Part shown: piece after piece, positions 60 through 33,595 of the stretch
Layout: the number at the start of each line of letters is the position of its first letter
Numbering within the stretch: the first letter of the stretch is position 1
From: a virus
IMG/VR virus record: IMGVR_UViG_3300005664_000022
Span: 1-35,360 of that record
Length of the DNA: 35,360 nt
Reading direction: 5' to 3' (one strand)
The notes under the pieces: generated by a model
The model's input: only the letters and a program-made list of their open reading frames with translations
Told to the model about the DNA's origin: nothing
Databases searched by the model: none
Made by a program: the position numbers and the translations under genes

Positions 60-926
60 ATGATAAACGAGTATGTATCTAGTTTTGTAGCTGGATTTTC
101 TAAGATTGCCGCACCTCGGTGGATGAAAGAGTTAAAAAAGAACCCGGGCGGTTTTTCTAAGGCGATTGGTAATACCTACGCTACAGGAACCTCTCAGTGG
201 GGACAAACGGCTGAAAGAGTTGCACAATCAGTACATAAAAACCCAGCTCGTGCCAGACAACAGGTAGGAGAGTACGTGTTTGGTATACAACCATCCAGAC
301 CTCATAAAAACATCTCAGTGATGAGAAATAAGGACGTACACTCCCTAAGCCTTCAGAGCCCAGAACGGCGTTCCGCTTATTTTAAAACAAAACATGGATG
401 GTACAAGCAGCTTGCTTCCGTGAAAGAAACAGACCCACAGCACAAGGCACAGATGGATATGAAATCGCACCTGGATGCACTTAGAAAAGACCTTCCTAGC
501 AGTCTTAAAGATAGTGGGGAAAAAGCTAGGCGCTACCTAGAGGGAACTCACGGCAGCAAACCAGGTTTCTCATATAAGATACAACCCGTAGGTTCCAAAA
601 GAGATATAGAAGTTAAGCACCTCACACCTAAAGATAACGCACATCTGTTGGATAAAACACTTAAACGAAGCCCCTCCGCAGCTTCTCACCATATCACACA
701 CAAAGGACTTTTTACATTCCCCGCACACAGCGCAGACAGCCGCTTATTTTTAGGCGGTCTCTCCGAGGAAGAAGCTGCTAAACAAGGAATACATACAATA
801 AAGAGGAAAATACCGGAAAAATATATAACTTATTTACCTCCGAGTACCAGTCCATCAGAACAGAAGGATGCAGAGCTATATGTATCTGAAAAAGGTTGGA
901 AAGCTGGCAAAAAGAAACTTGGGTAG
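60..926 (+). CDS. Basic protein with N-terminal head-targeting-like tag
   Basis: A 288-residue, Lys/Arg/His-rich protein of unknown function. Residues 9-17 read F-V-A-G-F-S-K-I-A, the tag shared with eight other proteins here, so I infer delivery into the phage head and processing after Ala17. The rest is soluble-looking, with many basic residues that would suit DNA contact and a C-terminal part rich in K-x-P and Tyr. ATG at 60 is chosen because it places the tag near the N terminus as in its relatives; a GTG at 45 in the same frame would add five residues. No strong Shine-Dalgarno is seen; a TATAAT at 48-53 could make the message nearly leaderless. It converges on the next gene across a hairpin. 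Confidence 0.75.
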   Translation: MINEYVSSFVAGFSKIAAPRWMKELKKNPGGFSKAIGNTYATGTSQWGQTAERVAQSVHKNPARARQQVGEYVFGIQPSRPHKNISVMRNKDVHSLSLQSPERRSAYFKTKHGWYKQLASVKETDPQHKAQMDMKSHLDALRKDLPSSLKDSGEKARRYLEGTHGSKPGFSYKIQPVGSKRDIEVKHLTPKDNAHLLDKTLKRSPSAASHHITHKGLFTFPAHSADSRLFLGGLSEEEAAKQGIHTIKRKIPEKYITYLPPSTSPSEQKDAELYVSEKGWKAGKKKLG

Positions 927-948
927 AACACCCACCAATAGGTAAAAA

Positions 949-972
949 CAAACCACCTGCTAAGGCGGTTTG
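949..972. terminator. Hairpin between convergent genes
   Basis: CAAACCACC and GGCGGTTTG form a 9-bp stem with one mismatch around a 6-base loop. It sits between the stop codons of two convergent genes, so it may end transcripts from both sides. The T-tracts are short. Confidence 0.5.
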
Positions 973-976
973 CTTA

Positions 977-1807: not shown

Positions 1808-2043
1808 CTCTGTATGGTCCTTTTGTTATTTCTTAGTTTATAAAATCAGTCGTAACCTTGGCACTAGCTGTATGTATCTGACTTTATTGGTAAATACGTC
1901 AGTTGTAACCAATGCATCGAGTCATACTCGCACATACCAACCGTCCGATTTATCTCACCTGTAACCAACTGTCCGATTTTAAGCCCCTTTCAGTTTGGGT
2001 ACGCGCTATGCGTCACCAGGCCCTCCATAGCCTCTATGACACG
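1808..2043 (-). promoter_or_regulatory. Gene-free upstream region with two pairs of direct repeats
   Basis: No convincing gene lies here. CCAACCGTCCGATTT (1937-1951) recurs 28 bases later as CCAACTGTCCGATTT (1965-1979), and CAGTCGTAACC (1847-1857) recurs as CAGTTGTAACC (1900-1910). The second copy of the first pair is itself preceded by GTAACC. Such near-identical repeats between a regulator start and the next gene suggest operator sites. An A/T-rich TTTATAAA lies just upstream of the regulator and may be a -10 region on the minus strand. Confidence 0.4.
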
Positions 2044-3012: not shown

Positions 3013-3029
3013 AAAAACTCCTTAGGGGA

Positions 3030-3047
3030 TGGGCCTTCCATGGCCCA
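3030..3047 (-). terminator. Short intergenic hairpin
   Basis: TGGGCC and GGCCCA pair around a 6-base loop between the stop at 3060 and the start at 3012. There is no T-tract after it on the minus strand, so it may attenuate or protect RNA ends rather than terminate. Confidence 0.3.
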
Positions 3048-3059
3048 ACATTTGTTAAT

Positions 3060-3479: not shown

Positions 3480-3504
3480 AGACTTGCTCCTTTTTATAGC
3501 GAGT

Positions 3505-3557: not shown

Positions 3558-3562
3558 CTATA

Positions 3563-3591: not shown

Positions 3592-3613
3592 TCTCTGTAG
3601 TATCCTTTTTGGC

Positions 3614-4345
3614 ATGACATTTATGAGCGGTTTTACTAAGGTAGCTGATGCAGAGACTGAGGAATATAAGAAGGCTCGCCCCATACAAGATAAGCTAAGC
3701 TGTATGTTCAGTGTTAGGGAAGCAGCCGAGATCGGTCACCCTGTTAAAGTGGGTGATAAGATTGCTTACACATCACTATGCGGGTGGAAAGAGGGGGCTT
3801 GGGGTAGCCACACCAAGGGCTGTTCTGCCGACGAACCGGCGCAAGACCTGAGACGAGAGCTTGATAAGAAGCTAGCTGTAGAGCGAAGGAAACTGCCTAA
3901 AAGCGAGCGCTACCTTGGTTGGAGAGAGAGCGAAGCAGAGCTTGATAGAGTTCACCCACTTCCACATGACCATAGCGGCAAAGACTGGAATAAAGAGTCG
4001 GTTAAGATTGGTGATCTCGGGACTGTCGTGAAAGTGGACGCAGACAAAGACCGTTACGACGTCACCTGGGATAAGCACCCCGATTGTGTTTGGCAGAATT
4101 ACTCTGGGAAAGATTTAAAGATTCCTGCGCTAGGTTACCGCGCCTCACTTAAGTACTGGACCAAAAATCCGGGCAGCAGAGAGGCCTTATTAAATAAGGT
4201 CAAAGCTCTCGCTGGCGATGACTTCACCGTGACAGAGACTAAGAGCAAGTTCTGGCCTACCACTGCTAGGAACTTAGTTTTTAGAACTGGCGACCCTGCC
4301 ACAGCTAAAAAAATAAACGCTGCTAGGTACGATATTGAGAGCTAG
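3614..4345 (+). CDS. Tagged protein with SH3/KOW-like segment
   Basis: A 243-residue protein of unknown function with F-M-S-G-F-T-K-V-A at residues 3-11, the shared tag. About residues 125-165 ('G-D-L-G-T-V-V-K-V-D' through 'Y-D-V-T-W-D') look like a KOW/SH3-type small barrel, and an earlier 'V-K-V-G-D-K-I-A-Y' may be a second strand set. ATG at 3614 or 3623 both keep the tag; an upstream ATG at 3587 adds nine residues that would push the tag inward, so I reject it. No good ribosome site is seen. It is an isolated plus-strand gene between minus-strand blocks, which suggests an independent cargo gene. Signal placement is seen; head delivery is inferred. Confidence 0.75.
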   Translation: MTFMSGFTKVADAETEEYKKARPIQDKLSCMFSVREAAEIGHPVKVGDKIAYTSLCGWKEGAWGSHTKGCSADEPAQDLRRELDKKLAVERRKLPKSERYLGWRESEAELDRVHPLPHDHSGKDWNKESVKIGDLGTVVKVDADKDRYDVTWDKHPDCVWQNYSGKDLKIPALGYRASLKYWTKNPGSREALLNKVKALAGDDFTVTETKSKFWPTTARNLVFRTGDPATAKKINAARYDIES

Positions 4346-5344: not shown

Positions 5345-5593
5345 CTACTTGGAAAGAAATTTTTTGATTGCAGCTACAAGCCCCGGTCTAGGCTTTGGGT
5401 GCTCCCCATGTAGGGCTTTTAAGTGTTTACCCATGGACCGGCCTGTGGCACGAGCCAGCGCGTATTCGTCAGCCAGGTCTCTTGCGACCCTCTCAGCTTT
5501 ATGGGTACCGCCTAGTCTGCCACTGCTAAGTGCGGCTTGGATGATGCGGTGTCGACTTAGTGCGGCAAGTTTACTGAAGCCTTTTGTGAACAT
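5345..5593 (-). CDS. Small basic protein with head-targeting-like tag
   Basis: An 82-residue basic protein beginning M-F-T-K-G-F-S-K-L-A, the shared tag at residues 2-10. If cleaved after Ala10, a basic helical protein of 72 residues remains, ending in P-K-P-R-P-G-L-V-A-A-I-K-K-F-L-S-K. The charge suits DNA binding or membrane contact. It is the only clear tagged gene inside the minus-strand early-type block, so its product is either made early and stored or expressed from its own promoter. An A/T-rich GATAAAAT lies just upstream of the start. Confidence 0.75.
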   Translation of the reverse strand: MFTKGFSKLAALSRHRIIQAALSSGRLGGTHKAERVARDLADEYALARATGRSMGKHLKALHGEHPKPRPGLVAAIKKFLSK

Positions 5594-6297: not shown

Positions 6298-7128
6298 TTA
6301 GTTATTCACTGACTCGAACGTTACAGGATGGTATATTCTCACCGGTACACTTGGTGGGAATCTATTAGCCTGTGTGATTGCCTGTGCGCCGGTTAACACG
6401 GTAGAGCTGTTGTTAGTACATGCTCTATTCGTGTCTTCCTTAGACAAGTAAGTCACTGACTGTGTTCTGAAGCCTGTGTTAATCTTCAACGCATTACCCG
6501 TGGTGCTTGAGTTGTTAAACTTCCACATCACAATAGCTTTGCCATGAAGATTAGCCTGAACGTATCCCTGGCCTGTGCAGTTAGCACCGGCAAAGTACAC
6601 ATCTACAGTGCTCGGTAAAAACCCGTTAAGGTCATACCATGCAACAGCGTCATCAGTTTGGTCGTAGACAAACAGGTTAGCGCTGATACCGCCACCAGTG
6701 GTTGAGATCAAACGATCACCAACCACGGTGTTATCAGCGTCCTTAACCTTGAACCATCTGCCATCAGCACCTGCTGCTCCTGCTGTTCCTGCAACACCTT
6801 GAGCACCCTGAGCACCGGCTGCACCAGCAGCTCCTGTGGCACCGGCAGAACCGGTTGCTCCTGTAGGGCCTGTTGCTCCGGTTGCGCCTACAGCACCAGT
6901 AGAGCCTGCGGCACCACTGATTGAAGCAGACGTTCCATCCGTACAAGTGATCGTAGCTGTGTTACCGCTTTGTGACACAGAACAACTACCTGAGACAGAT
7001 GTAGACGCTTGCGCTGCTTGATTGCCGGTACTGAGGGGGCTATCAGCATTCATGCTTGATACCGCACCCTCGCAACCAGCGGTTATAAGACTCATTGAAA
7101 CTACCAACATCATTTTTACATTTCTCAT
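6298..7128 (-). CDS. Collagen-like lipoprotein
   Basis: A 276-residue protein with a lipoprotein signal peptide: a basic start, a hydrophobic core, then L-I-T-A-G-C with Cys19 as the lipidation site. A short beta region with two Cys (about 45-70) precedes 17 or so uninterrupted G-x-y triplets rich in GAT/GAA (about 72-123), which should form a collagen-type triple helix. The C-terminal ~150 residues are a beta-rich globular domain with Cys pairs. A lipobox means it is made for the host envelope rather than the virion, unless it is kept uncleaved. It may coat or alter the infected cell surface (for example superinfection block), or be acquired from a host. It is followed by a strong terminator, so it forms its own transcript end. 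Confidence 0.85.
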   Translation of the reverse strand: MRNVKMMLVVSMSLITAGCEGAVSSMNADSPLSTGNQAAQASTSVSGSCSVSQSGNTATITCTDGTSASISGAAGSTGAVGATGATGPTGATGSAGATGAAGAAGAQGAQGVAGTAGAAGADGRWFKVKDADNTVVGDRLISTTGGGISANLFVYDQTDDAVAWYDLNGFLPSTVDVYFAGANCTGQGYVQANLHGKAIVMWKFNNSSTTGNALKINTGFRTQSVTYLSKEDTNRACTNNSSTVLTGAQAITQANRFPPSVPVRIYHPVTFESVNN

Positions 7129-15017: not shown

Positions 15018-15350
15018 ATGTTTAGCACAGGTTTTAAAAAAATAGCAACAGCGCCCACAGTCAACCTCACGCCAGAGGAATATTATGCTACAGTAGGTGG
15101 TAAAGATCCTTATGTTGGCGCAGTAATAGGATCCGCAGTAGGCGGCATCGCTGGCGCTATCAAAGGCAAATCTAACCGCAGCAAAGCAGCTATCTTAGGT
15201 GCTTTAGCAGGCGAGGCGGCAGGGGCCGGCACTGGCTACATCGGTGGTAAAGCTGTAAGAAGCTATCAGGCTAGAAAAGTTCGCAGATTAACAGGGGATT
15301 TGAATATAAGAGCTACGCCATCTCGTAGCTACGGCGGGGAGAACGCGTAA
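15018..15350 (+). CDS. Tagged glycine-zipper protein
   Basis: A 110-residue protein opening the virion operon. M-F-S-T-G-F-K-K-I-A is the shared tag (residues 2-10). Residues about 35-80 form two Gly/Ala-rich segments with G-x3-G spacing ('G-A-V-I-G-S-A-V-G-G-I-A-G', then 'G-A-L-A-G-E-A-A-G-A-G-T-G'), typical of glycine-zipper membrane helices, joined by a basic turn. The C terminus is basic. I infer a head-packaged peptide that could insert into a membrane when released. The stop overlaps the next start (TAATG). Confidence 0.8.
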   Translation: MFSTGFKKIATAPTVNLTPEEYYATVGGKDPYVGAVIGSAVGGIAGAIKGKSNRSKAAILGALAGEAAGAGTGYIGGKAVRSYQARKVRRLTGDLNIRATPSRSYGGENA

Positions 15351-16234
15351 TGTATAGATCTAAAGAAGTTTTGAACACGATGGCTAAGATTGCTGCTGAC
15401 GCTTATCTAGGTAAGCAAAAGACTGTGCTTAACGATAGCCTGAAAAAGATCGCAAAAGATGAGGGTCTTACCCCACACCAGATTGAGTACGTGGCTGCGG
15501 AAGCAAACAAAACTGTATGGGCGGATCTGTTTAAAATGGATAAGACAGCAAGCTATGACTTCGCTCTTGCCGAGCCAGGGTTAGTAATTAAAGAATTACA
15601 GCTTAAAGAAAGCACCGGACAAATTAAAGAGGCTCAGATGGATTATTTAGGCAGCCCTGTATTTAATAAGACCGCCGTAGATAAGAGTGTTTACGGTGAG
15701 TTTGTGACGCTCTCTACAGACTCAGCGTCCTACGACCAGGTTAAGCTTGCAAGTCACAGAGGTGATTTGAAACGTACCATGGTTTCTCGTATGGAGAAAA
15801 TGGCTCATCTCAGAGATGAGCTCAGCATGGAAATGATTAAGACCAGCACGGCTATCGACAACTGCCGTAAAGCTTTTATTAAAGAAGCTAGAACGCTTGT
15901 TATGGAAACCCCATTCACCGATCGCGGGATTGCTATGGACAAGATCGCTGAGTTCGTAAGATCCGCGGGGTTTAAAGAAGTCGGCAAAGACCTCATGGCC
16001 AAGCTATCACACGTGGTTAAATCACAGGGCCTGATCAAACAAGCAGACCTCAAAGCCCCTGAAGAATATATCAGTGACAAGCTCCCTGCCAGAATCATCA
16101 ACGGCAGACACCAGCTTTATATCACTATCCAGACTCTTCATAAGCTTCAAGAACAGGAACTTGGGCTGCAACGAAATTATGAGATTGTCGACAGCTCGCT
16201 TCCTATTTTGAAGGAGAAGATCCGTGAGCTCTAA
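15350..16234 (+). CDS. Helical virion/core protein with many K-x-A sites
   Basis: A 294-residue, mostly helical protein. The N terminus has M-A-K-I-A at 11-15 without the F-x-x-G-F part. Further K-x-A tripeptides recur about every 20-40 residues (K-K-I-A, D-K-T-A, N-K-T-A, V-K-L-A, E-K-M-A, D-K-I-A). If these are protease sites the protein is cut into peptides during head maturation, like a core protein. The last third is charged and helical. Function is inferred from the sites and neighbours only. Confidence 0.75.
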   Translation: MYRSKEVLNTMAKIAADAYLGKQKTVLNDSLKKIAKDEGLTPHQIEYVAAEANKTVWADLFKMDKTASYDFALAEPGLVIKELQLKESTGQIKEAQMDYLGSPVFNKTAVDKSVYGEFVTLSTDSASYDQVKLASHRGDLKRTMVSRMEKMAHLRDELSMEMIKTSTAIDNCRKAFIKEARTLVMETPFTDRGIAMDKIAEFVRSAGFKEVGKDLMAKLSHVVKSQGLIKQADLKAPEEYISDKLPARIINGRHQLYITIQTLHKLQEQELGLQRNYEIVDSSLPILKEKIREL

Positions 16235-16442
16235 GTTTACCACTGGCTTCTATAAAGTAGCTTTTGTGGGGGCACTCGTAGGAGCTCTCGGCAAAGGCGC
16301 TTTGGGAGCTGGTAAGCTTGCATGGAAAGGTGCTAAAGCCGCTAGTGGTGGATCAGCACTTGGAGCAGCACTAAATGCTTCTCAGTTGGTGGGTGATACC
16401 CAAACCAACTGGAACAAGATGCAGAAAGCATACAGGAACTAA
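16224..16442 (+). CDS. Tagged small glycine-zipper protein
   Basis: Seventy-two residues from a GTG start that follows AAGGAG and overlaps the previous gene by 11 bases. F-T-T-G-F-Y-K-V-A at 5-13 is the shared tag. It is followed at once by a Gly/Ala helix with G-x3-G spacing (V-G-A-L-V-G-A-L-G-K-G-A-L-G-A-G) and a short soluble tail. It is probably a membrane-active or head-core peptide. Confidence 0.75.
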   Translation: MSSKFTTGFYKVAFVGALVGALGKGALGAGKLAWKGAKAASGGSALGAALNASQLVGDTQTNWNKMQKAYRN

Positions 16443-16445
16443 CCC

Positions 16446-17834
16446 ATGTCTAAATTAATGAGGCAGGCAAAGGTAGACTTATTAGCTCTAAGCAAGATTG
16501 CAAATACAGCAACACCACAGGGCAGTGAGCTTAAGGCCTGGCTTAGACTTCTAGCTCCCGCAATGCTTACAGCGGGCATTGGTGGTATCGCAGGATACAA
16601 GGCAGGGAAAAACAGTGAGAGTGCTATCAAGGAAGAGGCAGACAAGCTTAAAGCCAGTTTCCACAGCACCTTTGATAAGTCCCCTTCCTTTAAGAAGGAC
16701 CCATCTTTGTACAGCCAGCGATTTAGCGAGCTTGCCCTCATTTCACCCACTATTGCTAAAAATCCTAACTTCGCGCACAAAATCATCGAAGGTAGTTTAC
16801 ACACAGGATTCGGTGTAGACGACATTCATAAATTATCCGCGATTGAGTTTCAACGCTCTAATACCAAGCAACTATCTATGCCAGAGCAAGCATCTGCCGC
16901 AGCAAGGGCTAATGCTATGAGCACAGTAGTAAACATATTTGGCGTACGCATGTTGGACGGTGTGCTGGAGGCCGGTAAGGACCTTAATGATATTCACGCT
17001 GCTAGGGTCGCCAAGACTGTTGCAGAAAATGAGGCTGGGTCAGCCGCTTCTAAAGCCAGTGGCATACATAAAGTTCAGGATGCTCCGTTCAACAGCAAAC
17101 AAAAAGACATTCTTAGAGAAGCGATGGACGCTGAAACTGCAAAGTATATGGCAGAGAAAAAGCTTAGAGCCGCCGCAGCTACCGCACCTAAAGAAGATAA
17201 GAAACCGGGCGGTTTGTTCGGGTGGTTAAAAAAGGAAAGTTCTATGGCAAATGTAAGTGACGAGTGTTTAGGACAGATGCTGGCTGAGCGCCACCAGATG
17301 TTAAAAACTGCTGGTATGTGGGATAGCATTAAAAAGAACATGGGCCCTGGCACAGAGGCTATGGCTGGTTACTTGAAGTTCATGGCACCCTCTCTGTTAA
17401 TTGGTGGCGGCGGTGCTCTAGTTCAGCACGTGCTACAAAGTCAGAAAGATAAGAAGGCCGCTAATGAGGCGGAGCAGGTTTATTTAAACATTGCTAAGTC
17501 TAGCGATGTGATGAAGCAGAACCCTGCCGCAGCACGCGAGATTTTCTCTACTATGCAGATGTTCGCACCAACTCTAGCGACTAGGCCGATGCTGGTTAAA
17601 ACTTTTGTAGAGCACACACTGCAAAACGATCATATGGCTCCTCAAGCAATTAAAGAACTTGCGGATGCAGAGGCTTCTGCTGGGCGCAAAGGTGGCACAA
17701 CCTTCCTTAAAAGCTTTAAAGAAAACGTTGATCTTGTTGGTAAGCCTGTCGCAGATTTTGGGACACAGTTTGATAAAGCCAAGAAAGAACACGCTAAGAG
17801 AAGTAGTACATTCGCCGAGCGAGATAAAAAATAA
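16446..17834 (+). CDS. Duplicated head/core protein with two membrane-like units
   Basis: A 462-residue protein made of two related halves. Unit 1 (about 30-122) and unit 2 (about 306-397) align along their length: 'L-A-P-A-M-L-T-A-G-I-G-G' with 'M-A-P-S-L-L-I-G-G-G-G', then a charged helix, 'K-N-P-N-F-A-H-K-I-I-E-G-S-L' with 'T-R-P-M-L-V-K-T-F-V-E-H-T-L'. Each is preceded by a K-x-A tripeptide (S-K-I-A at 16-19; L-K-T-A at 286-289). Met267 (17244) has AAAGGAAAG upstream and could start the second half separately. The protein may be a fused tandem duplicate of a membrane-active virion protein. Its stop overlaps the next start. Confidence 0.75.
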   Translation: MSKLMRQAKVDLLALSKIANTATPQGSELKAWLRLLAPAMLTAGIGGIAGYKAGKNSESAIKEEADKLKASFHSTFDKSPSFKKDPSLYSQRFSELALISPTIAKNPNFAHKIIEGSLHTGFGVDDIHKLSAIEFQRSNTKQLSMPEQASAAARANAMSTVVNIFGVRMLDGVLEAGKDLNDIHAARVAKTVAENEAGSAASKASGIHKVQDAPFNSKQKDILREAMDAETAKYMAEKKLRAAAATAPKEDKKPGGLFGWLKKESSMANVSDECLGQMLAERHQMLKTAGMWDSIKKNMGPGTEAMAGYLKFMAPSLLIGGGGALVQHVLQSQKDKKAANEAEQVYLNIAKSSDVMKQNPAAAREIFSTMQMFAPTLATRPMLVKTFVEHTLQNDHMAPQAIKELADAEASAGRKGGTTFLKSFKENVDLVGKPVADFGTQFDKAKKEHAKRSSTFAERDKK

Positions 17835-19762
17835 TGGAAAAACGGGCAGTATTCGGTGAGAACGTTGGTAAGGAACGGGACGTCTTCTTTATAAAAGAAG
17901 ATCGTAACTACCTTATTAAGCGTGCTAGCCAGTACCACCCAGAAATCCAAAAATATATCGACAATGCCACACCTATTAAGGATCTGGTGCAGGTGCTTAT
18001 CACGGCGCTAGGTGCTTACGAGCAGTGGGGCATTAATGCAAATGCCGATGCTTTTCCAGAGGCTGCTTTGTCGCACAAAGGCGACGACTTTGGTTACGAG
18101 ACATTCAAAACAAACGCCAACTATTTCTTACATCATGTTAATAAGGATCCTTCCCTTGCCAAAGGCAAGGTCCTGCATACGGTATGGAACCAAAAGGCAA
18201 AGCGTGTAGAACTTGTTATCGGCATCGATGTTAATCTTGACCCTGAAGGCGTGAGCTCTGTAGCTAACGGCGAAGCACTTGCATTCAGCATGGGCTCCAG
18301 ACTTCCTTACGATGTTTGTAGCATCTGTGGCAATAAGGCTAAGACACGCGCCGAGTACTGTGATCATCTGAAGTATCAGCTAAGACAGATGGACCCTGTT
18401 ACAGGCAAATTAGTCTACGCCAACAACACGCTCCCTAAATTTTTTGATATCAGCCGCGTCCTTATCCCTGCCGATAAGACTGCTTATATGTGGACCAAGG
18501 TAGCCGCTGCCGCAGGTGATAACCCTTTTGCAAAGCTTGGCTCCGCTGAGTTAGCGGCACTCCCACCAGGCAAGATCAACGACCTCTCGTACCTAAGGAA
18601 GATCGCTACCGATCGTGAAGCTCTCAATAAAGAAGCTGTTAAGAAATCCGCTGCCGTCAGTAAGTCAGCGTACATAAAAAAGCAGATTCCGGTACAGGTA
18701 CCAGCTCCTAAAGTAGTCTGTAAATTAGAAGAAATTATCCCCATCGCTAAGTTAGCTTTGGAGGCTAATTCCCCTAACATTGATATAAATGTGTTTCGTG
18801 GCCACTCGCTTCCAGAGGCTATGGTCACGCTTCTTGCCATGGGTATAGTCCCTAAGCGCGATGAGATGACGGGAATGCACGAGCTATTTGTAGCTCATAA
18901 GCCATCCGTGCTGGATAATTTGACTACAGGCATCGATAATTTTAGTAGAAAACTAGCGGATAAGTTAGTTCCTTATGTCGAGGAAAGAAGTTTTAGCAAG
19001 CCTATTTTGTTGAAAAGGTTGATGAAAACGGCAGCTCTTCCTTCTACTAAGCTTCGTGCGCTGGTAAACCCTTCTAGTAGTAAACTAGACAAGTTAGCAG
19101 AAGGCTCCACTGCTCATGCAGGTTTAGCCGCAGCGATCGCGGCCGCCCTTTACGCGATGATGTCCGGCGGGGCTGAGAAGAGATCAGCTGGTATGGGTAG
19201 GCTTATCGCAGACCATCCCTTCATCGCCATGGCACTAGGTGCTGGCATGATTAAAACACTAAGAAACTTAAATCCTAGCCGCCAAGTAGAATCTGGTCAG
19301 ATTACTCTTGCTGATCCAACTCGTGGCCTCTATAATAATGACTGGCAGAGTCGGTTTAGAGATCTTCAAACACGACCTGTCGCGGTTATAAAAACCGGGT
19401 CTGTGTCAGTCACTACTGCAAGCCAACTTATCGATGGAATGTCGTTGCTGTTTCAGCATGCAAACCTAAATAAACTGGCGCAATCACAGCACCCTGTTAC
19501 CGATTTTATTTTACAAAATCCAAGCAAATTTGAGTTAGGACTTATTGGCGCCTACGCCGACGGTCAGAATGTGTCTGAGAAAATCGGATCCATGATGGCT
19601 TCTGCTAGTCGTTTGATTAAGTCCGCGTCCTTAGGTAATCTCGAATTTCTTGAGATGTTGCCAGACACCGACAGGGACGTTGTATGGGATCTGGCTATTA
19701 TTAACGCGGCTGATGAAATCAATCGCAAAATTGTCGAGGGAGGCTCTTATGGCAACTCTTAA
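17834..19762 (+). CDS. Prohead maturation protease fused to core-like region
   Basis: A 642-residue protein. Residues 60-215 look like a herpesvirus/phage-type maturation protease: 'F-L-H-H101-V-N-K-D-P-S' supplies the His, 'A-F-S152-M-G-S' the Ser, with 'K-R-V-E-L-V-I-G-I-D' between. A C-x-x-C...C-x-H set (162, 165, 176, 178) is likely a zinc site. Right after this domain comes T-K-V-A (221-224), then further K-x-A sites (around 390, 415 and later) in a helical, partly hydrophobic region to the C terminus. I infer a protease that releases itself and processes tagged proteins. It lies before the core proteins and capsid, the normal place for such an enzyme. Confidence 0.7.
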   Translation: MEKRAVFGENVGKERDVFFIKEDRNYLIKRASQYHPEIQKYIDNATPIKDLVQVLITALGAYEQWGINANADAFPEAALSHKGDDFGYETFKTNANYFLHHVNKDPSLAKGKVLHTVWNQKAKRVELVIGIDVNLDPEGVSSVANGEALAFSMGSRLPYDVCSICGNKAKTRAEYCDHLKYQLRQMDPVTGKLVYANNTLPKFFDISRVLIPADKTAYMWTKVAAAAGDNPFAKLGSAELAALPPGKINDLSYLRKIATDREALNKEAVKKSAAVSKSAYIKKQIPVQVPAPKVVCKLEEIIPIAKLALEANSPNIDINVFRGHSLPEAMVTLLAMGIVPKRDEMTGMHELFVAHKPSVLDNLTTGIDNFSRKLADKLVPYVEERSFSKPILLKRLMKTAALPSTKLRALVNPSSSKLDKLAEGSTAHAGLAAAIAAALYAMMSGGAEKRSAGMGRLIADHPFIAMALGAGMIKTLRNLNPSRQVESGQITLADPTRGLYNNDWQSRFRDLQTRPVAVIKTGSVSVTTASQLIDGMSLLFQHANLNKLAQSQHPVTDFILQNPSKFELGLIGAYADGQNVSEKIGSMMASASRLIKSASLGNLEFLEMLPDTDRDVVWDLAIINAADEINRKIVEGGSYGNS

Positions 19763-20375
19763 TGAACTGATGGCGGAAGTAGGCCTTTCTGTTTCTGGAA
19801 ACGGACACACTAAGGAAGCTCAAGCACCTAAGTCAGTTAACGAAGAGATCAGTAAGGTATTAGAGAATCTCGGATTAGGTGGAGATGCTGAAACCATCAA
19901 GACCGCGTCTGAGGCAACACAAAACGAAGAAAACGGAGGCCCTATGGGTTTGACCAGTATTTATGAAGGTTTGTTCGGAGAAGAAGCAGCAGCTGCTGTT
20001 TCCACCCACCAAGAAAAAACAGCATCTGAACATGAAGAAGGCGATGTCTCGGCTTCCGATGTTTTCGGACAGCTTGCTGCAGCTTATTTCGGCGTAGCTA
20101 AAGAAGAGTATGTCGAGAAAGTAGCCGCTGATTTGGAAGCTGCTGCTGGCGCAGGACATGATCCTATGGCAAGCCTTGGAACTGGTGGACAACTCACCGG
20201 TATCATCGGTAAAGAAAAAAGCCCACGCCTCCCAGTGAATGCTCAACAGGGCGAAAGCCATGATGTCACCACCGGCGGAACTTCTCCATATAATTTGGCA
20301 TTGGCGCAGGTGAAACAAATCCTTAAGCGTAGTATTAAAACCGAGCCCGGTGTATCCGGCGGTTATAACCAGTAA
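19749..20375 (+). CDS. Acidic prohead core protein
   Basis: A 208-residue, Glu/Ala-rich protein. The start at 19749 has GAGGGAGG upstream and overlaps the protease gene by 14 bases; a longer frame from 19650 lies wholly in protease coding sequence and is rejected. K-x-A sites occur at I-K-T-A, E-K-T-A and E-K-V-A, plus T-K-E-A. Acidic, repetitive, multiply cuttable proteins next to a maturation protease resemble phage scaffold/core proteins. Function is inferred. Confidence 0.75.
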   Translation: MATLNELMAEVGLSVSGNGHTKEAQAPKSVNEEISKVLENLGLGGDAETIKTASEATQNEENGGPMGLTSIYEGLFGEEAAAAVSTHQEKTASEHEEGDVSASDVFGQLAAAYFGVAKEEYVEKVAADLEAAAGAGHDPMASLGTGGQLTGIIGKEKSPRLPVNAQQGESHDVTTGGTSPYNLALAQVKQILKRSIKTEPGVSGGYNQ

Positions 20376-20403
20376 TCGTAAGATCTGAAGAGGAGAATAT
20401 AAA

Positions 20404-21336
20404 ATGCATACACAAATTGAACAGATTCTTTCATCCCTGACCGAGGAAGATGTGCAATCTATCTTGAATACACAATTTCCTGAAGAACTCGAAAAGCAGG
20501 CTGCTGCAGAATTAGCTAGCGAAGACCTCGCTCAAGCTCTTTATGCATTCGGCGCTTACCAAGCTGATCGTGAACTTGCTGAAGTTGACGGCGTTGAAAA
20601 AGTTGCTGCTGAACAAACTGAAGAGTTTGATTCTGCTGAAGCTGAGATCGCTAACGCAATCGAAGAAGCTCTCGAAGCATCTGGCGTACTCGATTCTGAA
20701 GACGAACTCACTGTACAAAAAGAAGCTCAGGCTGCTGCAGGACTTATCTTTGCTGGTTATTCTGCACAGATCGAAAAGATCGCAGAAGAAGCTAAAGAAG
20801 TCCCTGGCAAGATGGCTAAAGTTAAAGCCGCTCTTGTTAAGATGCAAGAATCAGCTAAAGCTCACGCTGCTAAGGCAAAAGGCCATGTCGGCGCACACGC
20901 CGGCAAGTACGGTTTGGCTGCTGGTATCGTCGGTGGTATCGCTGCTAAGCACATGCATGATAAGCACATGAGCAAGAAAGCTTCAGAGCTTTCTGTTGAT
21001 GAACTTACTGGCCAAGTATTGGCTAAGCTTGCTGTAGCTCAAGAGATTGAGTTGGGCGTTGAAAAGCTTGCGAGTGCCGCTACTGAAAGTGCGGCTAGAC
21101 TAGCAAAAAAAGTAATCCCTGGCTCTGCTATGACCGCGACTGAAAAGGCTAAAGCTTTAGACAAGTATTTGTTAAAAAAGCACCCAGTCGGTCATAGGGT
21201 AGAAAAGCTTAAGGGCGCGGCTACTGATGCTGGCAAGTACTTAAGAGCTAACGTCAAGCCTATCGCTGGCGGAGCTGCTGTTGGTATGGCTGCTGGAGCT
21301 CTCGGCCACAAAGCTTTGAGCAAGAAGGAAGACTAG
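20404..21336 (+). CDS. Main scaffold/core protein candidate
   Basis: A 310-residue protein with a strongly acidic, Ala-rich first half and a basic second half. K-x-A sites are dense: E-K-Q-A, E-K-V-A, Q-K-E-A, E-K-I-A, K-K-A, A-K-L-A and E-K-L-A. Two glycine-zipper stretches follow (around 170 'G-L-A-A-G-I-V-G-G-I-A' and near the C terminus 'A-G-G-A-A-V-G-M-A-A-G-A-L'). It has a strong ribosome site (AGAGGAGAAT) and codon use typical of a well-expressed gene. It probably forms the prohead core and is degraded on maturation, possibly leaving membrane-active peptides in the head. Confidence 0.7.
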   Translation: MHTQIEQILSSLTEEDVQSILNTQFPEELEKQAAAELASEDLAQALYAFGAYQADRELAEVDGVEKVAAEQTEEFDSAEAEIANAIEEALEASGVLDSEDELTVQKEAQAAAGLIFAGYSAQIEKIAEEAKEVPGKMAKVKAALVKMQESAKAHAAKAKGHVGAHAGKYGLAAGIVGGIAAKHMHDKHMSKKASELSVDELTGQVLAKLAVAQEIELGVEKLASAATESAARLAKKVIPGSAMTATEKAKALDKYLLKKHPVGHRVEKLKGAATDAGKYLRANVKPIAGGAAVGMAAGALGHKALSKKED

Positions 21337-21338
21337 TC

Positions 21339-21833
21339 ATGGCTATCAAGTCACTACAAACCCTCATGGACGAGGCCGACAGGTTGATTGCATCAACCCG
21401 TGGCGACGTTGTGAAGGTTGCGGCAGTGGCTGGGTTAGATGACGTTGTGGGAGTTGCGCAGGCATTAATTAATGCTGGCGCTATTGAATCTGGAAATGAC
21501 TCTGGGGTTGTGAAAACAGCCTCGGAGTCTTCCGGGTTTGATAAACTGGCTCTCGCACTCAATCGGTCGCTTGCGGCTGTTGAGATTGAGTCGATGGAAA
21601 AGATTGCTAAGTTCTGCGGCTCTGCCCAGAACAACGGGTACACAGATCAACAGATTACAGAGGCAGTCCAAAAGATTGCCGCTGCAAGTGTTAAAAAAAA
21701 TCTGGCTACCTTAGTAGCTCTCGAAGCATCGACTACGGTAGGTACGGGTATTACTCAAAAAGTTAAGAAGCCTGTGTCTACTGACCAAGGCTGCGATGTC
21801 GACCTGACTAACAACATGGGGAGGGGGCTATGA
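21339..21833 (+). CDS. Core/virion protein with K-x-A sites
   Basis: A 164-residue helical protein starting three bases after the scaffold stop. K-x-A tripeptides lie at 26-28, 59-61, 69-71, 88-90 and 112-114, roughly every 20-30 residues. The C terminus is short, soluble and Gly-rich. It is probably another minor core component. No named family is recognised. Its stop overlaps the next start (ATGA). Confidence 0.7.
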   Translation: MAIKSLQTLMDEADRLIASTRGDVVKVAAVAGLDDVVGVAQALINAGAIESGNDSGVVKTASESSGFDKLALALNRSLAAVEIESMEKIAKFCGSAQNNGYTDQQITEAVQKIAAASVKKNLATLVALEASTTVGTGITQKVKKPVSTDQGCDVDLTNNMGRGL

Positions 21834-22180
21834 AAACAGTCTCTCTGGACATGGTTAAACAGGCCGGTGTTTTACTGAAGCGAGAACATGAGGAGCGTTT
21901 GCGGCTAGAAAAAGTAGCTTCTGCGCTCGAACATGAAAAACGTGCGATGAAAATTGCATTTCGTGAGGTAGAATTAGGTATTGCAGAGCCTTTTAAAACA
22001 TTTGATGAGTTTTTGAGTAAGGTTGCAAACCTAACTCAAGAAAACCTCGATATCGTCGAGAAGGCTTTGGAACGGGGTTATGGTTCTTCTTTCCATACCG
22101 CAGAGCTATCTGATGGGAGCCCAGCTCCCAGAGGAAGTAATGCATTGGAAAGATGGGTTTTGAATGGCGAGGAAGCATAA
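21830..22180 (+). CDS. Small helical virion protein
   Basis: A 116-residue, helical, charged protein. K-Q-A (10-12), E-K-V-A, M-K-I-A and S-K-V-A match the recurring tripeptide. The stretch 'P-F-K-T-F-D-E-F-L-S-K-V-A-N-L' through 'V-E-K-A-L-E-R-G' looks like a compact conserved helical motif near the C terminus. Overlapping start and position before the head genes support a core or head-assembly role, not proven. Confidence 0.7.
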   Translation: MKTVSLDMVKQAGVLLKREHEERLRLEKVASALEHEKRAMKIAFREVELGIAEPFKTFDEFLSKVANLTQENLDIVEKALERGYGSSFHTAELSDGSPAPRGSNALERWVLNGEEA

Positions 22181-22716: not shown

Positions 22717-23640
22717 ATGATGAATGAAGAAGCAACCACATTTAATAACCTGTTTATCGAGCGTATGGATACGCAAGACGGACAGGTTAAGACAGCTCAG
22801 GCAGGACAGGCTTACGTCCGTTCTTTCCTACGTGAACACAGTTTTGCTCGTAAGATTCTCCCACCAGAGAGTGTTACCAGAGCAGATCTCCAACGTTCTA
22901 CCCGCCACGACACCTTGATCAAGGTAGTTGATTTCGAGCATCCCTCGACAGCTGCTGCAGTCAATTTTCGTTCGGCTGGTCGTGAGCGTTACTTGCAAGG
23001 CAAGCGTTACTCAGTACCTTTCTTCAAAGTTGAGAGCGATCTCTTCACGAAGCAAGAAGCTGAATTGCTTGCTTACGAGTACCCAATCACTAAGGTGATT
23101 GAAGAAAACAGCATCAAGGACATTATGTTTGTAGAAGACTCTGTCTTCTTGCAAGCTTCTGCCGGAGCTGTTTTCAATTCTGGTAAGAAAATTGTTAGCG
23201 CTGACACTGCTGTGTCACGTAGCAATCTTAACAAATTGTTCAAGATGATCGATGTGGATAAGCTCCAGTCGATGGTATGCTTGATGACCTCAGTCGATTT
23301 TGATGACTGGCAGGTTCAGCAAGCAACTGATGTCGGCTCACCTTTGGCTACCGAAATGGTTGTCAATGGTTACAAGTACGACACCATCATGCGCCGTAAG
23401 CTTGTTGTGACCAACAAGGTTGATTTGCTCAGCCCTGGTCATATCTACGCTTACACCGATCCTAAGTTCCTCGGTAACTTCTTCATCTTGAACGACGTTA
23501 AGTTCTGGATTAAGAAAGAAGCCGATCGCGTGTTCTGGAAGAGCTGGGAATACGTCGGAATGGGTATTGCAAACCTTCGTTCGGTTGCCAAAATCGAACT
23601 TGCGGTTCCGCAAATCATTCCTGGCGGCGGTTCTTTCTAA
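22717..23640 (+). CDS. Major capsid protein
   Basis: A 307-residue protein with a very strong ribosome site (AAGGAGGAGG). It sits at the end of the head gene run just before the strongest terminator in the operon. The N-terminal 27 residues end in G-Q-V-K-T-A; the following 'Q-A-G-Q-A-Y-V-R-S-F-L-R-E' starts a helix like the N-arm of HK97-fold capsids. The later 'A-V-N-F-R-S-A-G-R-E-R-Y-L', a long helix with 'F-T-K-Q-E-A-E-L-L-A-Y', and 'V-V-T-N-K' with a C-terminal beta region fit the class. Processing after Ala27 is predicted by the shared K-x-A signal. The capsid call rests on context and pattern, not on a search. Confidence 0.8.
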   Translation: MMNEEATTFNNLFIERMDTQDGQVKTAQAGQAYVRSFLREHSFARKILPPESVTRADLQRSTRHDTLIKVVDFEHPSTAAAVNFRSAGRERYLQGKRYSVPFFKVESDLFTKQEAELLAYEYPITKVIEENSIKDIMFVEDSVFLQASAGAVFNSGKKIVSADTAVSRSNLNKLFKMIDVDKLQSMVCLMTSVDFDDWQVQQATDVGSPLATEMVVNGYKYDTIMRRKLVVTNKVDLLSPGHIYAYTDPKFLGNFFILNDVKFWIKKEADRVFWKSWEYVGMGIANLRSVAKIELAVPQIIPGGGSF

Positions 23641-25725: not shown

Positions 25726-25920
25726 ATGTTCGCAGAGGGCTTCAAAAAGATTGCGTGGGAGATTAATCAACAGGCAGCCGCTGATTTTAGTCGCGGAGCT
25801 AGCAAAGGCTTTGGCGCTGATGACTGGAAGTCTGGTATACAAAACCTCAAGAATCAGATTGGTCTAGGAGGCCCCCAAAAACCTCCTGCAGCAGGCACAG
25901 TCGACAGGGCTGGTGGGTAA
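25726..25920 (+). CDS. Small tagged protein
   Basis: Sixty-four residues starting M-F-A-E-G-F-K-K-I-A, the shared tag. The mature part would be about 54 residues, Gly/Gln-rich and without a membrane helix. AAAAGGGAG precedes it. Probably a minor head cargo peptide. No other function can be read. Confidence 0.75.
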   Translation: MFAEGFKKIAWEINQQAAADFSRGASKGFGADDWKSGIQNLKNQIGLGGPQKPPAAGTVDRAGG

Positions 25921-25922: not shown

Positions 25923-26144
25923 ATGTTCAGCACTGGCTTCCTCAAAATCGCTGGCGTGTATAGTGTGCAAGGACCTCAAGGCGGTATCAAGCCCAGCAGC
26001 AAGCCCGCACGCATTAGCAGTCCTACGCCCGCACCTAGTTTTCTAAAGTCTGTTACCGGGGCCAAGGCGACCACTCCATTTGGCAGGCCTCTAACCGGCT
26101 TTGGGCACCGTCCCAAAATAACGTCTTTCCTACGACATGGCTAA
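25923..26144 (+). CDS. Small tagged proline-rich protein
   Basis: Seventy-three residues starting M-F-S-T-G-F-L-K-I-A, the shared tag, then a basic, Pro/Ser/Gly-rich tail (K-P-S-S-K-P-A-R-I-S-S-P) without predicted structure. It begins two bases after the previous stop and overlaps the next gene by eight bases. Its charge suits a DNA-contacting cargo peptide. Confidence 0.75.
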   Translation: MFSTGFLKIAGVYSVQGPQGGIKPSSKPARISSPTPAPSFLKSVTGAKATTPFGRPLTGFGHRPKITSFLRHG

Positions 26145-29792: not shown

Positions 29793-32309
29793 ATGGATTC
29801 TCTGGATAAAAAACTAAGGTTAACATTCCGCACGATGTACGGAGCAGGTACCGGAAGCGCTGGGGCTGGCCTTGGGTTTTTAGCTAGAAGCCGATATGAA
29901 GACAGGTTTAAGCCAGACAAAGAAAAAACAACTGGGGACAAGCTATTAGCAAAAGCACCTGTGCTGGGAGCGCTCACGGGCTTTGGTGCCGGATTCTTTA
30001 GAGGTAAACACCACGCAAAGACATTAGTGGACAGCCTAAGCAAGTTTGGAGCTCTAAAAAAAGACGTTGAGCTCAGGCCACATCAACTTGATTTGATCGA
30101 TCAGGTGCACAAAAACAACGGTCAGATGCTAGTAGCGCACGCAACCGGAGTGGGCAAAACCCTGGGTGCTATAGCAGCGTTTGAGGACCTGAAGCAAAAG
30201 GGCAAGGCTAGTAAAGCTATCGTAGTGGTTCCGTCTTCGCTTAGAAGTAATTTTGTGGATAGCGGTATCAAGAAGTTTACGAATTCTTCTGTGTCTACCT
30301 TTGGGCCAAAGAATGAATCGGGGACTAAGAATGTGGGTCATCACTCAGCGGCAACCTATAATGTCATAAGCTACGATTTGTTCAGAGAACACGGCAAAGA
30401 AATAATTGATAAGTTAAAACCAGACACACTCATCATGGACGAGGTGCACAGAGCTCGCGCCACTGAGGGTGTTACATACAATAAACTCATGGATTTGAGG
30501 CCACACTTTAAAAACGTGCTCACACTCACTGGATCTGTGGTTAACAACGACCCTAATGAAATCGTACCCCTTCTAGATATTACCTACGGCAGGACGGGTC
30601 ACAGGCTGGTAAATACAAAATTCTTCGATAAGCTATTTGTTAATAAACAGGCTAAAACTGTTGGGTTTATACAGCCAAAGACAGTCATAGAGAAATCTCT
30701 TAAAAACAAGCCACAGCTTAGTAAATATTTAGAAGGTAAGGTTAGCTACGTACCACACGAGGATGTGGAGAAACTGCTGCCCAAGAAAAGCATGGAAGTT
30801 GTACGTGTACCAATGTCTAAGAGACAGCACGAACTATATGACTTCTCCATGAGTTCTGTAGATCCGCTTACAAGATGGAAGATTAGAAACAACCTCCCGG
30901 TGGGGCAGAAGGAAGCTCAAGAAGCTTTTGGAAAACTCATGCAGGCAAGGCAAGTTGCCACAGACCCATCAGTTCTTGACAAAGAGCTGCAGAAGCTACC
31001 GGATCCAGCTGCATTTAGTCCTAAAATCAAACGCATCGTGGATGACCTTCAAAGTCACCTTGATGCTGGAAAAGATAATAAGTCCGTTATCTATGGTAAC
31101 CTTCTTGAGGGCCAGCTGAAAGCTGTTGAGAAGTCGCTCAAACATAAGGGCATTGATTACACCACTTTTTACGGTGTGGGTAACGAAGGGAACTCCGCTA
31201 AGGCTAGGAAGCAGAATATTGAAAACTTCCAAAAAGGTGACCACAGAGTACTACTCATTTCTGGTGCTGGTGCCGAGGGCCTTGATCTGAAAAATGCAAA
31301 CATGCTTCAGGTGGTAGAAGGACACTACAACCCAGAGCGTATTCACCAAGCCGAGTCTCGCGTGAGAAGGCTAGGCTCCCCTGTCAAAGAGGTTCAGATT
31401 AAACGCTATGTATCCACACCATCAGGTTCTAAAGCAGGCTCGTACCTCAAAGACTTGTTGAGTAAAACACCTGTTGGAGGAAACACAGGCGTTGATGAGT
31501 GGATTTATACTATAGCCGGTAAAAAAGAAAAACTTAACGCATCATTCAGGGATGTTCTTAATAACCGCGGCGTAGATAAGACAGCTGGGTTCAACGTTAA
31601 TGACTCTGACGACAGGGCCTTTGCTGGTCACCTGTTGGGGTCACAGGCTCCGGTTGCAGGGCAGTATGGAATGATATTCGGACGTGCTTTTGGAAGACCT
31701 ATAGCTAACTTAATGGCTAGACAAACAGATAAAGCTTTAGAGACAAAGGCAAAGCAAATCTTGTTAGATATGGGGCACGAAAACCTTGCTACAAAGCAAC
31801 ACTTTCCTAAGATAATGGCAGAGTCTAAGCTGGATGAGAAAGCACTAGACGCTAGTATGGGTATGGCTGCACTAGCAGGCGGCGCTGGTTTGATGTATAG
31901 CCTAAACCCAAGCGCGCACAAATTAGTCGATAAGTATGTAGCCGCCCCCCTAGGTAACCAACTTCAGAAATATTTAGCAAAGCGTCCTATCGTACCTTAT
32001 GGAGGTAAAGCCTCCGATAAAGCACGCATGTTGCTTCATGCGGCTTCCAGCACTCCCGGAGGCCGTAAGTTAATAGCCACGGGCTTAGTAGGTATAGGTA
32101 TGGGATTAGCTGGGCCTATACTAGGGGCATACGTAACTAGAAAAGTGCTAAATAGTTCCCTTAAAACAGACAACCCCGATCTTAAAAAGGGGATTGATAT
32201 TTATAAAGAAAAACTTCGCAAGAAATATGAAAGTAAGTACAAAACCTCTAAAGGATTTGTAAACGAGTTCGAGACCAAGAAAGAACTTGGTATTGATGTG
32301 ATTGATTAA
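29793..32309 (+). CDS. SF2/SNF2-type helicase with glycine-zipper flanks
   Basis: An 838-residue protein. The core (about 90-545) is a superfamily 2 helicase/translocase: 'A-T-G-V-G-K-T' (117-123, Walker A), 'D-E-V-H' (216-219, motif II), 'T-L-T-G-S' (motif III), 'V-I-Y-G-N-L-L' (motif IV), 'I-S-G-A-G-A-E-G-L-D-L' (motif V) and 'H-Q-A-E-S-R-V-R-R-L-G' (motif VI). It would use ATP to move along duplex DNA. Unusual flanks: residues 15-70 and 640-790 contain Gly/Ala-rich membrane-like segments, and D-K-T-A-G-F at 595-600 looks like a processing site between core and C-terminal region. Located in the tail operon rather than with replication genes. Confidence 0.85.
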   Translation: MDSLDKKLRLTFRTMYGAGTGSAGAGLGFLARSRYEDRFKPDKEKTTGDKLLAKAPVLGALTGFGAGFFRGKHHAKTLVDSLSKFGALKKDVELRPHQLDLIDQVHKNNGQMLVAHATGVGKTLGAIAAFEDLKQKGKASKAIVVVPSSLRSNFVDSGIKKFTNSSVSTFGPKNESGTKNVGHHSAATYNVISYDLFREHGKEIIDKLKPDTLIMDEVHRARATEGVTYNKLMDLRPHFKNVLTLTGSVVNNDPNEIVPLLDITYGRTGHRLVNTKFFDKLFVNKQAKTVGFIQPKTVIEKSLKNKPQLSKYLEGKVSYVPHEDVEKLLPKKSMEVVRVPMSKRQHELYDFSMSSVDPLTRWKIRNNLPVGQKEAQEAFGKLMQARQVATDPSVLDKELQKLPDPAAFSPKIKRIVDDLQSHLDAGKDNKSVIYGNLLEGQLKAVEKSLKHKGIDYTTFYGVGNEGNSAKARKQNIENFQKGDHRVLLISGAGAEGLDLKNANMLQVVEGHYNPERIHQAESRVRRLGSPVKEVQIKRYVSTPSGSKAGSYLKDLLSKTPVGGNTGVDEWIYTIAGKKEKLNASFRDVLNNRGVDKTAGFNVNDSDDRAFAGHLLGSQAPVAGQYGMIFGRAFGRPIANLMARQTDKALETKAKQILLDMGHENLATKQHFPKIMAESKLDEKALDASMGMAALAGGAGLMYSLNPSAHKLVDKYVAAPLGNQLQKYLAKRPIVPYGGKASDKARMLLHAASSTPGGRKLIATGLVGIGMGLAGPILGAYVTRKVLNSSLKTDNPDLKKGIDIYKEKLRKKYESKYKTSKGFVNEFETKKELGIDVID

Positions 32310-32318
32310 GGAGAAACT

Positions 32319-33134
32319 ATGAGTTTTAAAGGGGGCTTCAACAAACAAGCCGGTTTTTTAGACGCAGCCGGACGGGTTCTTAAAAGCAGCGTAACAGCCA
32401 AGGGAGCTGTTAAAAACATCGGTAGAACTGCAGCTATGGGTGCCGCAGGCGGCGCACTTACTGGTGGTCTACAGAAGGACGAGAACGGTAACCGCGGCGG
32501 TATCGGCGGAGCTCTTAAGGGAGCTGTAGCTGGTGGTGTTGGTGGTGCTGCTATCGGCGTAGGCGCAAATGCTGGAGACAGGGTCTCTAAGCTACGTGGC
32601 ATCAACAAGGTTAAGAACATGCCAGGGAAGCCGGCAAATCCTATTATACTTCCTAAACCAGCTGTCCAAAGATCAGTGCCTAAACAGCGCCCAGATATTA
32701 CGCCTGAGTACGCTAAAGTAGCTATGCTACTTAAAGAAGCTGCCAAGCGTAAAAAAGGTTCTAACATTTCGCCTCCTATGGCCGGACACTCTTTAGCCGA
32801 CCAACTGGCTAAGGCTAAAGCTAAGAAGGACGCAAACCCCGATCTTAAAGCTGAGAAGCGCTTCAATAAGCTGCCTAAAAAAACGCGAGATTTATACAAT
32901 GAGGCTAAGGCTCTCAGCGATAAAGCACAGAAGGGCATTGATGATATCAAGGCCAGCCGCAGAGCCGCTGTAACTGCAGAGGCTAAGGCTGCTGGTAAAG
33001 CCGCAGCACCTAAGATCGTTGCTCCAAAGTCAGGGTTTGCTAAACACTGGCCTAAGGCTGCTGGCGGTGCGATCGCTGCCGGTGCCGCTGCTTATGGGTA
33101 CCACAAGTACAAGCAGAAGAAGGAAAACGCATGA
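32319..33134 (+). CDS. Tagged glycine-zipper virion protein
   Basis: A 271-residue protein with F-K-G-G-F-N-K-Q-A at 3-11, the shared tag. A very Gly/Ala-rich region follows (about 45-85, 'G-A-A-G-G-A-L-T-G-G' and 'G-G-A-L-K-G-A-V-A-G-G-V-G-G-A-A-I-G') with G-x3-G spacing, then a basic Lys/Ala helix region containing Y-A-K-V-A, and a C-terminal hydrophobic helix with a basic end. AAGGAG precedes the ATG. A membrane-inserting, head-stored protein is a reasonable reading, not shown. It ends with an ATGA overlap. Confidence 0.75.
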   Translation: MSFKGGFNKQAGFLDAAGRVLKSSVTAKGAVKNIGRTAAMGAAGGALTGGLQKDENGNRGGIGGALKGAVAGGVGGAAIGVGANAGDRVSKLRGINKVKNMPGKPANPIILPKPAVQRSVPKQRPDITPEYAKVAMLLKEAAKRKKGSNISPPMAGHSLADQLAKAKAKKDANPDLKAEKRFNKLPKKTRDLYNEAKALSDKAQKGIDDIKASRRAAVTAEAKAAGKAAAPKIVAPKSGFAKHWPKAAGGAIAAGAAAYGYHKYKQKKENA

Positions 33135-33595
33135 GCTTCGCCCACTCCTTCACCAAAACCGCTTTAAAAATGCGAGCTACTCCAAAGAAACATGGCGGTA
33201 GCGATGGTAAGCAGAGCTACGAGTTAAAGCGAGTGGGTAACAAGTGGACATGTTCCTGCCCTGATTTCACCTACAGACGCAACCATGTTGGCGGTGGCAA
33301 GTGCAAACACATCGAGGCGCACCTACAGGGTAAGAAGCCGTGGGAAGTCTCTACAAAGAAGCCGAAGCCTTTTAAAGAGCAACTCCCTGGTGGGTTAAGC
33401 TCTGGGCATCAGCCAAGTGAGTTTGAAGCAAAGCAGCTCGCCATGGGTAAGAAGACTGAGTCTGAACACACCAGCAACAAAAACTTAACCACTGAGATCG
33501 CCATGGACCATCTTATGGAAGACCCTAAGTACTACTCCAAGCTTAAAAAAATGGAGAAGAAGTCTCACTTCGTCCGCAGGTTTATCAGAGAGTAA
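33131..33595 (+). CDS. Tagged SWIM zinc-finger protein
   Basis: A 154-residue basic protein with F-A-H-S-F-T-K-T-A at 3-11 (tag with Ser for Gly). Residues 30-65 form a SWIM-type zinc finger: 'W-T-C41-S-C43-P-D-F' with 'G-K-C58-K-H60', the C-x-C...C-x-H arrangement used to bind DNA or protein. The remaining C-terminal part is charged and helical. Zinc binding is a family property; DNA binding is likely. As the last tagged gene in the operon it may enter the host with the genome. Its stop abuts that of the convergent nuclease gene. Confidence 0.8.
   Translation: MSFAHSFTKTALKMRATPKKHGGSDGKQSYELKRVGNKWTCSCPDFTYRRNHVGGGKCKHIEAHLQGKKPWEVSTKKPKPFKEQLPGGLSSGHQPSEFEAKQLAMGKKTESEHTSNKNLTTEIAMDHLMEDPKYYSKLKKMEKKSHFVRRFIRE

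Follow-up and report, generated by a model that had tools for sequence, protein, structure and literature searches.

A portable nine-residue N-terminal tag as a likely capsid-targeting propeptide in a clade of uncultured phages

Introduction

Among the closest described counterparts of the system presented here is the capsid targeting sequence (CTS) of phage T4, in which about 10 N-terminal residues are carried by unrelated internal proteins (IPI, IPII, IPIII and Alt) and are cut by gp21. In the ten-residue propeptide of IPIII, residues 4 and 7 serve mainly for targeting, and residues 8 and 10 for processing (PMC9026906). The established cut site of the T4 head proteins is (L/I)-x-E. In phage P1, an N-terminal signal directs the DarB protein into the head, with 30 residues being sufficient for a reporter, and the N-termini of the Dar proteins have no consensus (PMC9024508). 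In SPN3US and similar phages of the phiKZ type, gp245 strips head and ejection proteins of their N-terminal propeptides, which are mostly 111-254 residues long (two have 20-24), are cut after A-x-E and can be cut internally at several places (PMC10052503). Phage proteins that are packed in the head and injected are normally identified only by proteomics.

Those tags described here that have the form M-F-x-x-G-F-x-K-x-A carry aromatic residues at positions 2 and 6, and Lys and Ala at positions 8 and 10, which may be compared with the positions of T4 IPIII. As in T4, the tag is found together with a protease of similar fold and with core proteins that are rich in the same kind of site. Unlike the T4 CTS, it ends in phi-x-K-x-A rather than (L/I)-x-E, each genome has about 10-20 tagged proteins where T4 has only a handful, and it has internal and C-terminal copies in apparent polyproteins, while no exact tag exists in the T4 stretch that was scanned. 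Given that the tag ends in K-x-A and has no T4-type (L/I)-x-E, its interpretation as a homologous T4 CTS proper was rejected. Unlike the Dar N-termini of P1, it has a strict nine-residue consensus over 98 protein clusters, and no short tag common to many proteins has been described in the SPN3US/phiKZ type. The head modules of phages Arash and D69 and of Bacillus phage G contain a homologous capsid protein and protease, together with core genes enriched in phi-x-K-x-A, but differ in the absence of the exact tag from the scanned stretches and, in phage G, in a capsid protein with GRVALA. A literature search using the letters of the motif returned nothing relevant, although most subscription papers were outside its reach.

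The tag in the window

The window, that is, the whole stretch of DNA analysed here, is a virus record of 35,360 bases. In its six-frame translation, nine genes have F-x-x-[G/S]-F-x-K-x-A at the N-terminus with identical internal spacing, beginning 1-8 residues past the start codon in all nine:

84-110, plus strand: tag A, FVAGFSKIA; gene 60-926 (ATG at 60), 288 aa, no family
3620-3646, plus strand: tag B, FMSGFTKVA; gene 3614-4345
5564-5590, minus strand: tag C, FTKGFSKLA; gene 5345-5593
15021-15047, plus strand: tag D, FSTGFKKIA; gene 15018-15350, glycine zipper
16236-16262, plus strand: tag E, FTTGFYKVA; gene 16224-16442, GTG start
25729-25755, plus strand: tag F, FAEGFKKIA; gene 25726-25920
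25926-25952, plus strand: tag G, FSTGFLKIA; gene 25923-26144
32325-32351, plus strand: tag H, FKGGFNKQA; gene 32319-33134, glycine-rich and basic
33137-33163, plus strand: tag I, FAHSFTKTA, with Ser for Gly; gene 33131-33595, SWIM zinc finger and DUF5661

No tenth tag and no internal copy were found in the six-frame scan of the window, and shuffling of the residues gave an expectation of 0.047 matches per window against the nine observed. The tag is absent from the sheath (27088), the tube (29062), the decoration candidate (22196) and the DNA polymerase (10935, minus strand). An initial annotation had claimed both that nine genes open with this pattern at the same spacing, one with Ser for Gly, and that these last four proteins are untagged; the first claim held in full and the second held in the scan of the window. 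A correction in scope is needed for the K-x-A half, which is not limited to the nine genes but recurs all along the head-core genes (15350-22180) and is also present in the major capsid protein (22717).

Two other features of the window were observed by eye. The gene at 6298-7128 (minus strand) has collagen-like G-x-y repeats behind a predicted lipoprotein-like signal, and that at 33596-34012 (minus strand), which adjoins the last tagged gene, encodes a small staphylococcal-nuclease-like protein with a signal-like N-terminus.

Spread and portability of the tag

A search with the major capsid protein (22717) recovered 39 IMG/VR loci with 58-87% identity, on contigs of up to 182 kb, while the cultured relatives identified by this protein are distant (Vibrio phages D69/D148/D181, 31%; Salmonella phage Arash, 30%; Bacillus phage G, 22%). 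The search for the motif over phages, which the initial annotation had proposed as a check, found it to be abundant in the relatives and absent from the control phage stretches. The window and the capsid-protein loci together contain 119 copies of the strict form F..GF.K.A, nearly always a few residues from a start codon. Four long relative contigs have about 10-20 N-terminal tags each, nearly all on the strand of the capsid gene, and in these long relatives the tagged genes form clusters near the head genes and a second cluster elsewhere. There were no exact matches in the stretches scanned from T4 and phiKZ (50 kb each), Arash (91 kb), D69 (41 kb) and phage G (45 kb), and the motif is therefore not a common one in phages at large. 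None of the phages found to have the exact tag is cultured; Arash and D69 have phi-x-K-x-A sites but, in their scanned stretches, no F-F tag.

One sublineage has the tag in a stereotyped form, F-W-x-G-F-E-K-[R/Q/K]-A, and a DNA pattern for this form matched 58 stretches in IMG/VR, mostly true N-termini. The same pattern (FWxGFEKxA) had 51 matches in the far larger GTDB genomes, mostly short chance frames, which serve as background only. The co-occurrence of tag and protease was also assessed on 25 extra contigs with tag matches, of which one contained the protease, although this was uninformative, as most are short linear fragments and several of the matches are due to chance.

The tag is portable. 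When it was removed from 160 tagged proteins, the remaining sequences fell into 98 clusters with no detected similarity between them, and the logo of these proteins is nearly flat directly past the Ala, where the conservation ends. The presence of one short N-terminal peptide on otherwise unrelated proteins is one of the criteria for the class of T4-like capsid targeting sequences, and it is fulfilled here. As the members were picked by regular expression, the identity of 0.98 at the fixed tag positions within clusters is circular, and a homologue search with the mature part alone was used instead. In this search, 35 of the 45 non-self homologues were tagged exactly or with about one change, four had phi.K.A, and six had no tag. 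The third codon positions at the fixed residues are free (53/41/33/29 for Gly; 52/45/33/30 for Ala), and selection is therefore acting on the peptide.

The tagged proteins

The families that could be recognised in the tagged set comprise SNF2 helicase, ATP-dependent DNA ligase, NUDIX, DnaJ, SWIM zinc finger, DUF5661 and glycine zippers, while most tagged proteins had no family in Pfam, NCBIfam or PADLOC. The PADLOC matches were to generic helicase profiles and are not evidence of defence. The initial annotation had read the tagged set as a cargo list; across the clade, this list runs far beyond nine entries, with enzymes (SNF2 helicase, DNA ligase, NUDIX) among them.

The helicase homologue of Arash is untagged, is 38% identical to a tagged helicase and lacks just the front extension, with the alignment beginning at residue 20 of the tagged protein, so that the tag is a clean add-on. 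The SNF2 helicase occurs in two forms in the clade, a short tagged one and one with a long glycine-rich N-terminal extension, as in the window (29793-32309). Several homologues have a K-x-A-like site just ahead of the helicase domain, where the window has SKFG, and the untagged helicase at 29793 has an incidental PHROG match to a DarB-like profile.

Sites of the tag type in the head-core genes

Beyond the tags and the protease, the K-x-A sites of the head-core genes are distributed as follows:

15350-16234, plus strand: head-core protein, 10 K-x-A against 2.95 expected
16446-17834, plus strand: head-core protein, 4 K-x-A, including LSKIA at residue 19; 7.5 expected, not enriched alone
19683-20375, plus strand: scaffold/core-like protein, 4 K-x-A
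20404-21336, plus strand: scaffold/core-like protein, 10 K-x-A
21339-21833, plus strand: scaffold/core-like protein, 5 K-x-A
21830-22180, plus strand: scaffold/core-like protein, 5 K-x-A against 0.8 expected

The motif [LIVMF]-x-K-x-A was found 37 times in seven head-core proteins of the window, against 6.8 expected (5.4-fold, z 11.9), while 24 early and 7 tail proteins of the window were at expectation, and the control motifs (reversed, and with Arg) were flat, with no enrichment. The relatives gave a matching pattern, in that phi.K.A was found in their core genes 32 times against 3.7 expected in Arash, 33 against 3.7 in D69 and 12 against 2.9 in phage G. As a positive control, the same method was applied to [LI].E in T4, which gave a parallel pattern, with 31 against 13.1 expected in the core and 41 against 37.1 in the tail. 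Individual internal K-x-A sites remain uncertain, however, because a three-residue motif is common.

In a logo of 422 core sites, in which P5, P3 and P1 were fixed by the search and the other positions were free, Leu, Phe and Met predominate at P5, Glu at P4, Thr, Val and Ile at P2, and Ser and Ala past the presumed cut. The preference for Glu at P4 is common to the tag and the core sites, while the core sites have no enrichment of F at -8, and have G at -5 in 14%. The longer phi-x-x-G-phi-x-K-x-A is present in head proteins of Arash and D69 (for example, LTDGIVKVA and IDQGLVKEA), and it is possible to infer that this represents an ancestral form of the tag.

The prohead protease and the capsid protein

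The features of the protease and the capsid protein are the following:

17834-19762, plus strand: prohead (head maturation) protease, 642 aa; phrog_18299, E=2.9e-11; 14 K-x-A in all
17918-17926, plus strand: candidate N-terminal self-cleavage site KRA, residues 29-31, in an L-x-K-x-A (27-31) ahead of the domain
18497-18505, plus strand: candidate C-terminal self-cleavage site KVA, residues 222-224, a K-x-A past the domain
22717-23640, plus strand: major capsid protein; phrog_2522, 3.6e-14
22780-22797, plus strand: predicted maturation cleavage site G-Q-V-K-T-A, capsid residues 22-27, from the conservation of G-x-x-K-x-A

Gene 17834 is a head maturation protease, and gene 27088 a tail sheath. 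In the protease alignments, H101 and S152 are invariant and are the candidate catalytic His and Ser. An AlphaFold model of moderate quality (mean pLDDT 70) was matched by Foldseek to T4 gp21 (5jbl_B; prob 0.91, TMt 0.55), although the E-value of the top gp21 match is weak (0.062). The structure matches in BFVD include many prohead proteases, with gp19 of phage G at 4.9e-13, while a profile sequence search with the protease against the PDB found nothing relevant. A prohead protease of the gp21/HK97 type is recognised by its fold and by conserved Ser and His candidates, both of which are present here.

K-x-A, with L-x-K-x-A as the form ahead of the domain, is found on both sides of the protease domain in nearly all the relatives, even in gp19 of phage G, with Gly replacing the first Ala in one locus (L003). 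This arrangement is what self-cleavage at both ends of the protease would need, although the cleavage itself is inferred from the sequence. In one relative, the protease ORF (L021:3536-6613, 1025 aa) contains an intein (Intein_splicing and LAGLIDADG) directly past the invariant Ser-Met-Gly, that is, at the candidate catalytic serine, and the same split is found in the protease ORF of G025 (1087 aa).

The G-x-x-K-x-A of the capsid protein ends at residue 26-29 in 25 of 25 aligned relatives, and is kept in Arash and D69 even though their identity is only about 30%. Directly behind its Gly, the sublineage of the window itself has Gln, and one sublineage, together with Arash and D69, has Ile, Leu or Met. 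The capsid protein of phage G (gp27, L186) has GRVALA at the aligned place, yet K-x-A is kept around its protease gp19, which may point to a relaxed P3 specificity or another site; no report on the cleavage sites of phage G was found in the literature searched. The end of the tag is thus the same phi-x-K-x-A as the sites of the capsid protein, core and protease, with cleavage at all of these being inferred.

Internal tags and apparent polyproteins

Eighteen tags lie in longer open frames directly behind another K-x-A, for example, EKSA|FWDGFEKRA and TKKA|FWQGFEKRA (the vertical line marks the start of the tag). Several of these may still be N-terminal, given a start codon close by, while others are clearly internal. 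One ORF is organized as tag-NUDIX-EKTA-MA-tag-DUF6582. Another opens with an N-terminal tag and closes with a further tag at its extreme C-terminus (LKEA|FWRGFRKGAA-stop). The double-tagged protein is found in L029 near 19988-20510, with the same gene in L031, and its C-terminal tag recalls the C-terminal processing of T4 Alt. Judging from their sequences, these ORFs look like cleavable polyproteins, which argues against a mere leader.

Proposed mechanism and alternative explanations

The most probable reading is that the nonapeptide is a capsid-targeting propeptide, with a function like that of T4 and a different sequence; packaging, cleavage and ejection are inferred. The front part, F-x-x-G-F, would dock the new protein on the internal core or scaffold of the prohead, although no partner has been identified, and the back part, [phi]-x-K-x-A, would be the site at which the phage's own prohead protease (17834-19762) recognises it. 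This division is proposed because of the analogy with T4 IPIII and because F(-8) and G(-5) are not general in the core sites. During head maturation, the protease would cut the tag after the Ala, fragment the core proteins at their numerous phi-x-K-x-A sites, cleave the capsid protein behind residue 27 and release itself by cuts at its two ends. The cargo would then lie loose inside the mature head, and would probably be ejected along with the DNA. The initial annotation had proposed a head-targeting tag cut after the Ala, with the logic of T4 and a different sequence. Every computational test supports this, including the portability over 98 clusters, the phi-x-K-x-A common to the capsid protein, protease and core, and the K-x-A that precedes the internal tags, while the presence in virions and the new N-termini are inferred. 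To our knowledge, there is no virion proteomics of any tag-bearing phage, the tag-bearing records being uncultured contigs.

The alternative that survives best, though it is unlikely, is that the nonapeptide is only a propeptide of the prohead protease, which would keep proteins inactive or tethered until maturation, for example, with the targeting located elsewhere in the protein. This view is favoured by the phi-x-K-x-A half, which is clearly the shared site of the protease type, and by the capsid protein, which has the G-x-x-K-x-A part alone. However, the 98 unrelated mature parts have nothing else detectable in common, and F(-8) and G(-5) define the tag without being general in the core sites, so that the front half is probably more than a cleavage site.

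There is still less reason to accept a docking motif that stays uncleaved and binds a partner in the virion or in assembly, its K-x-A likeness to the core sites reflecting a shared binding surface rather than proteolysis. Cleavage is only inferred, and the core and capsid proteins could bind one partner. Against this, the same gene cluster encodes a prohead protease that has the motif on both of its own sides, the conservation ends exactly at the Ala, a second K-x-A lies ahead of the internal tags, and the T4 core is enriched in a similar way for its proven cleavage site.

It is equally improbable that the tag addresses the tail, the host membrane or a replication compartment rather than the head. 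The tagged genes at 25726 and 25923 do lie amid tail genes, and in the relatives some are far from the head genes, but the tail proteins lack the motif, with phi.K.A at expectation, while the head-core set, the capsid protein and the head protease have it. Finally, the tag could be translated merely by chance, as a repeat at the DNA level, a mobile cassette or a translation leader. This would fit the location at gene starts, but is practically ruled out by the lack of conservation at synonymous sites, and by the tags inside and at the end of ORFs.

Implications

The capsid-targeting propeptide thus remains the preferred reading. The predicted cleavage sites of the head proteins in Arash, D69 and phage G are a plausible precursor of the tag, although this can only be offered as a possibility. 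A bolder reading, for which the chances seem evenly balanced, is that of a clade-wide nine-residue address code that works at N-terminal, internal and C-terminal positions, in which polyproteins would be imported to the prohead and cut into injected effectors, and the full injected proteome, with tens of host-directed proteins, would be readable from the sequence.

If the preferred reading is true, the T4 strategy of a short targeting propeptide and a protease also exists with a different sequence code, and a regular expression would list the injected cargo of a large uncultured clade, including helicases, ligases, NUDIX hydrolases, J-domain proteins and dozens of families without a known function. 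Reporter proteins might likewise be loaded into phage heads by means of such a short, cleavable tag. Under the same condition, the tagged genes would provide ready candidates for counter-defence and host take-over.
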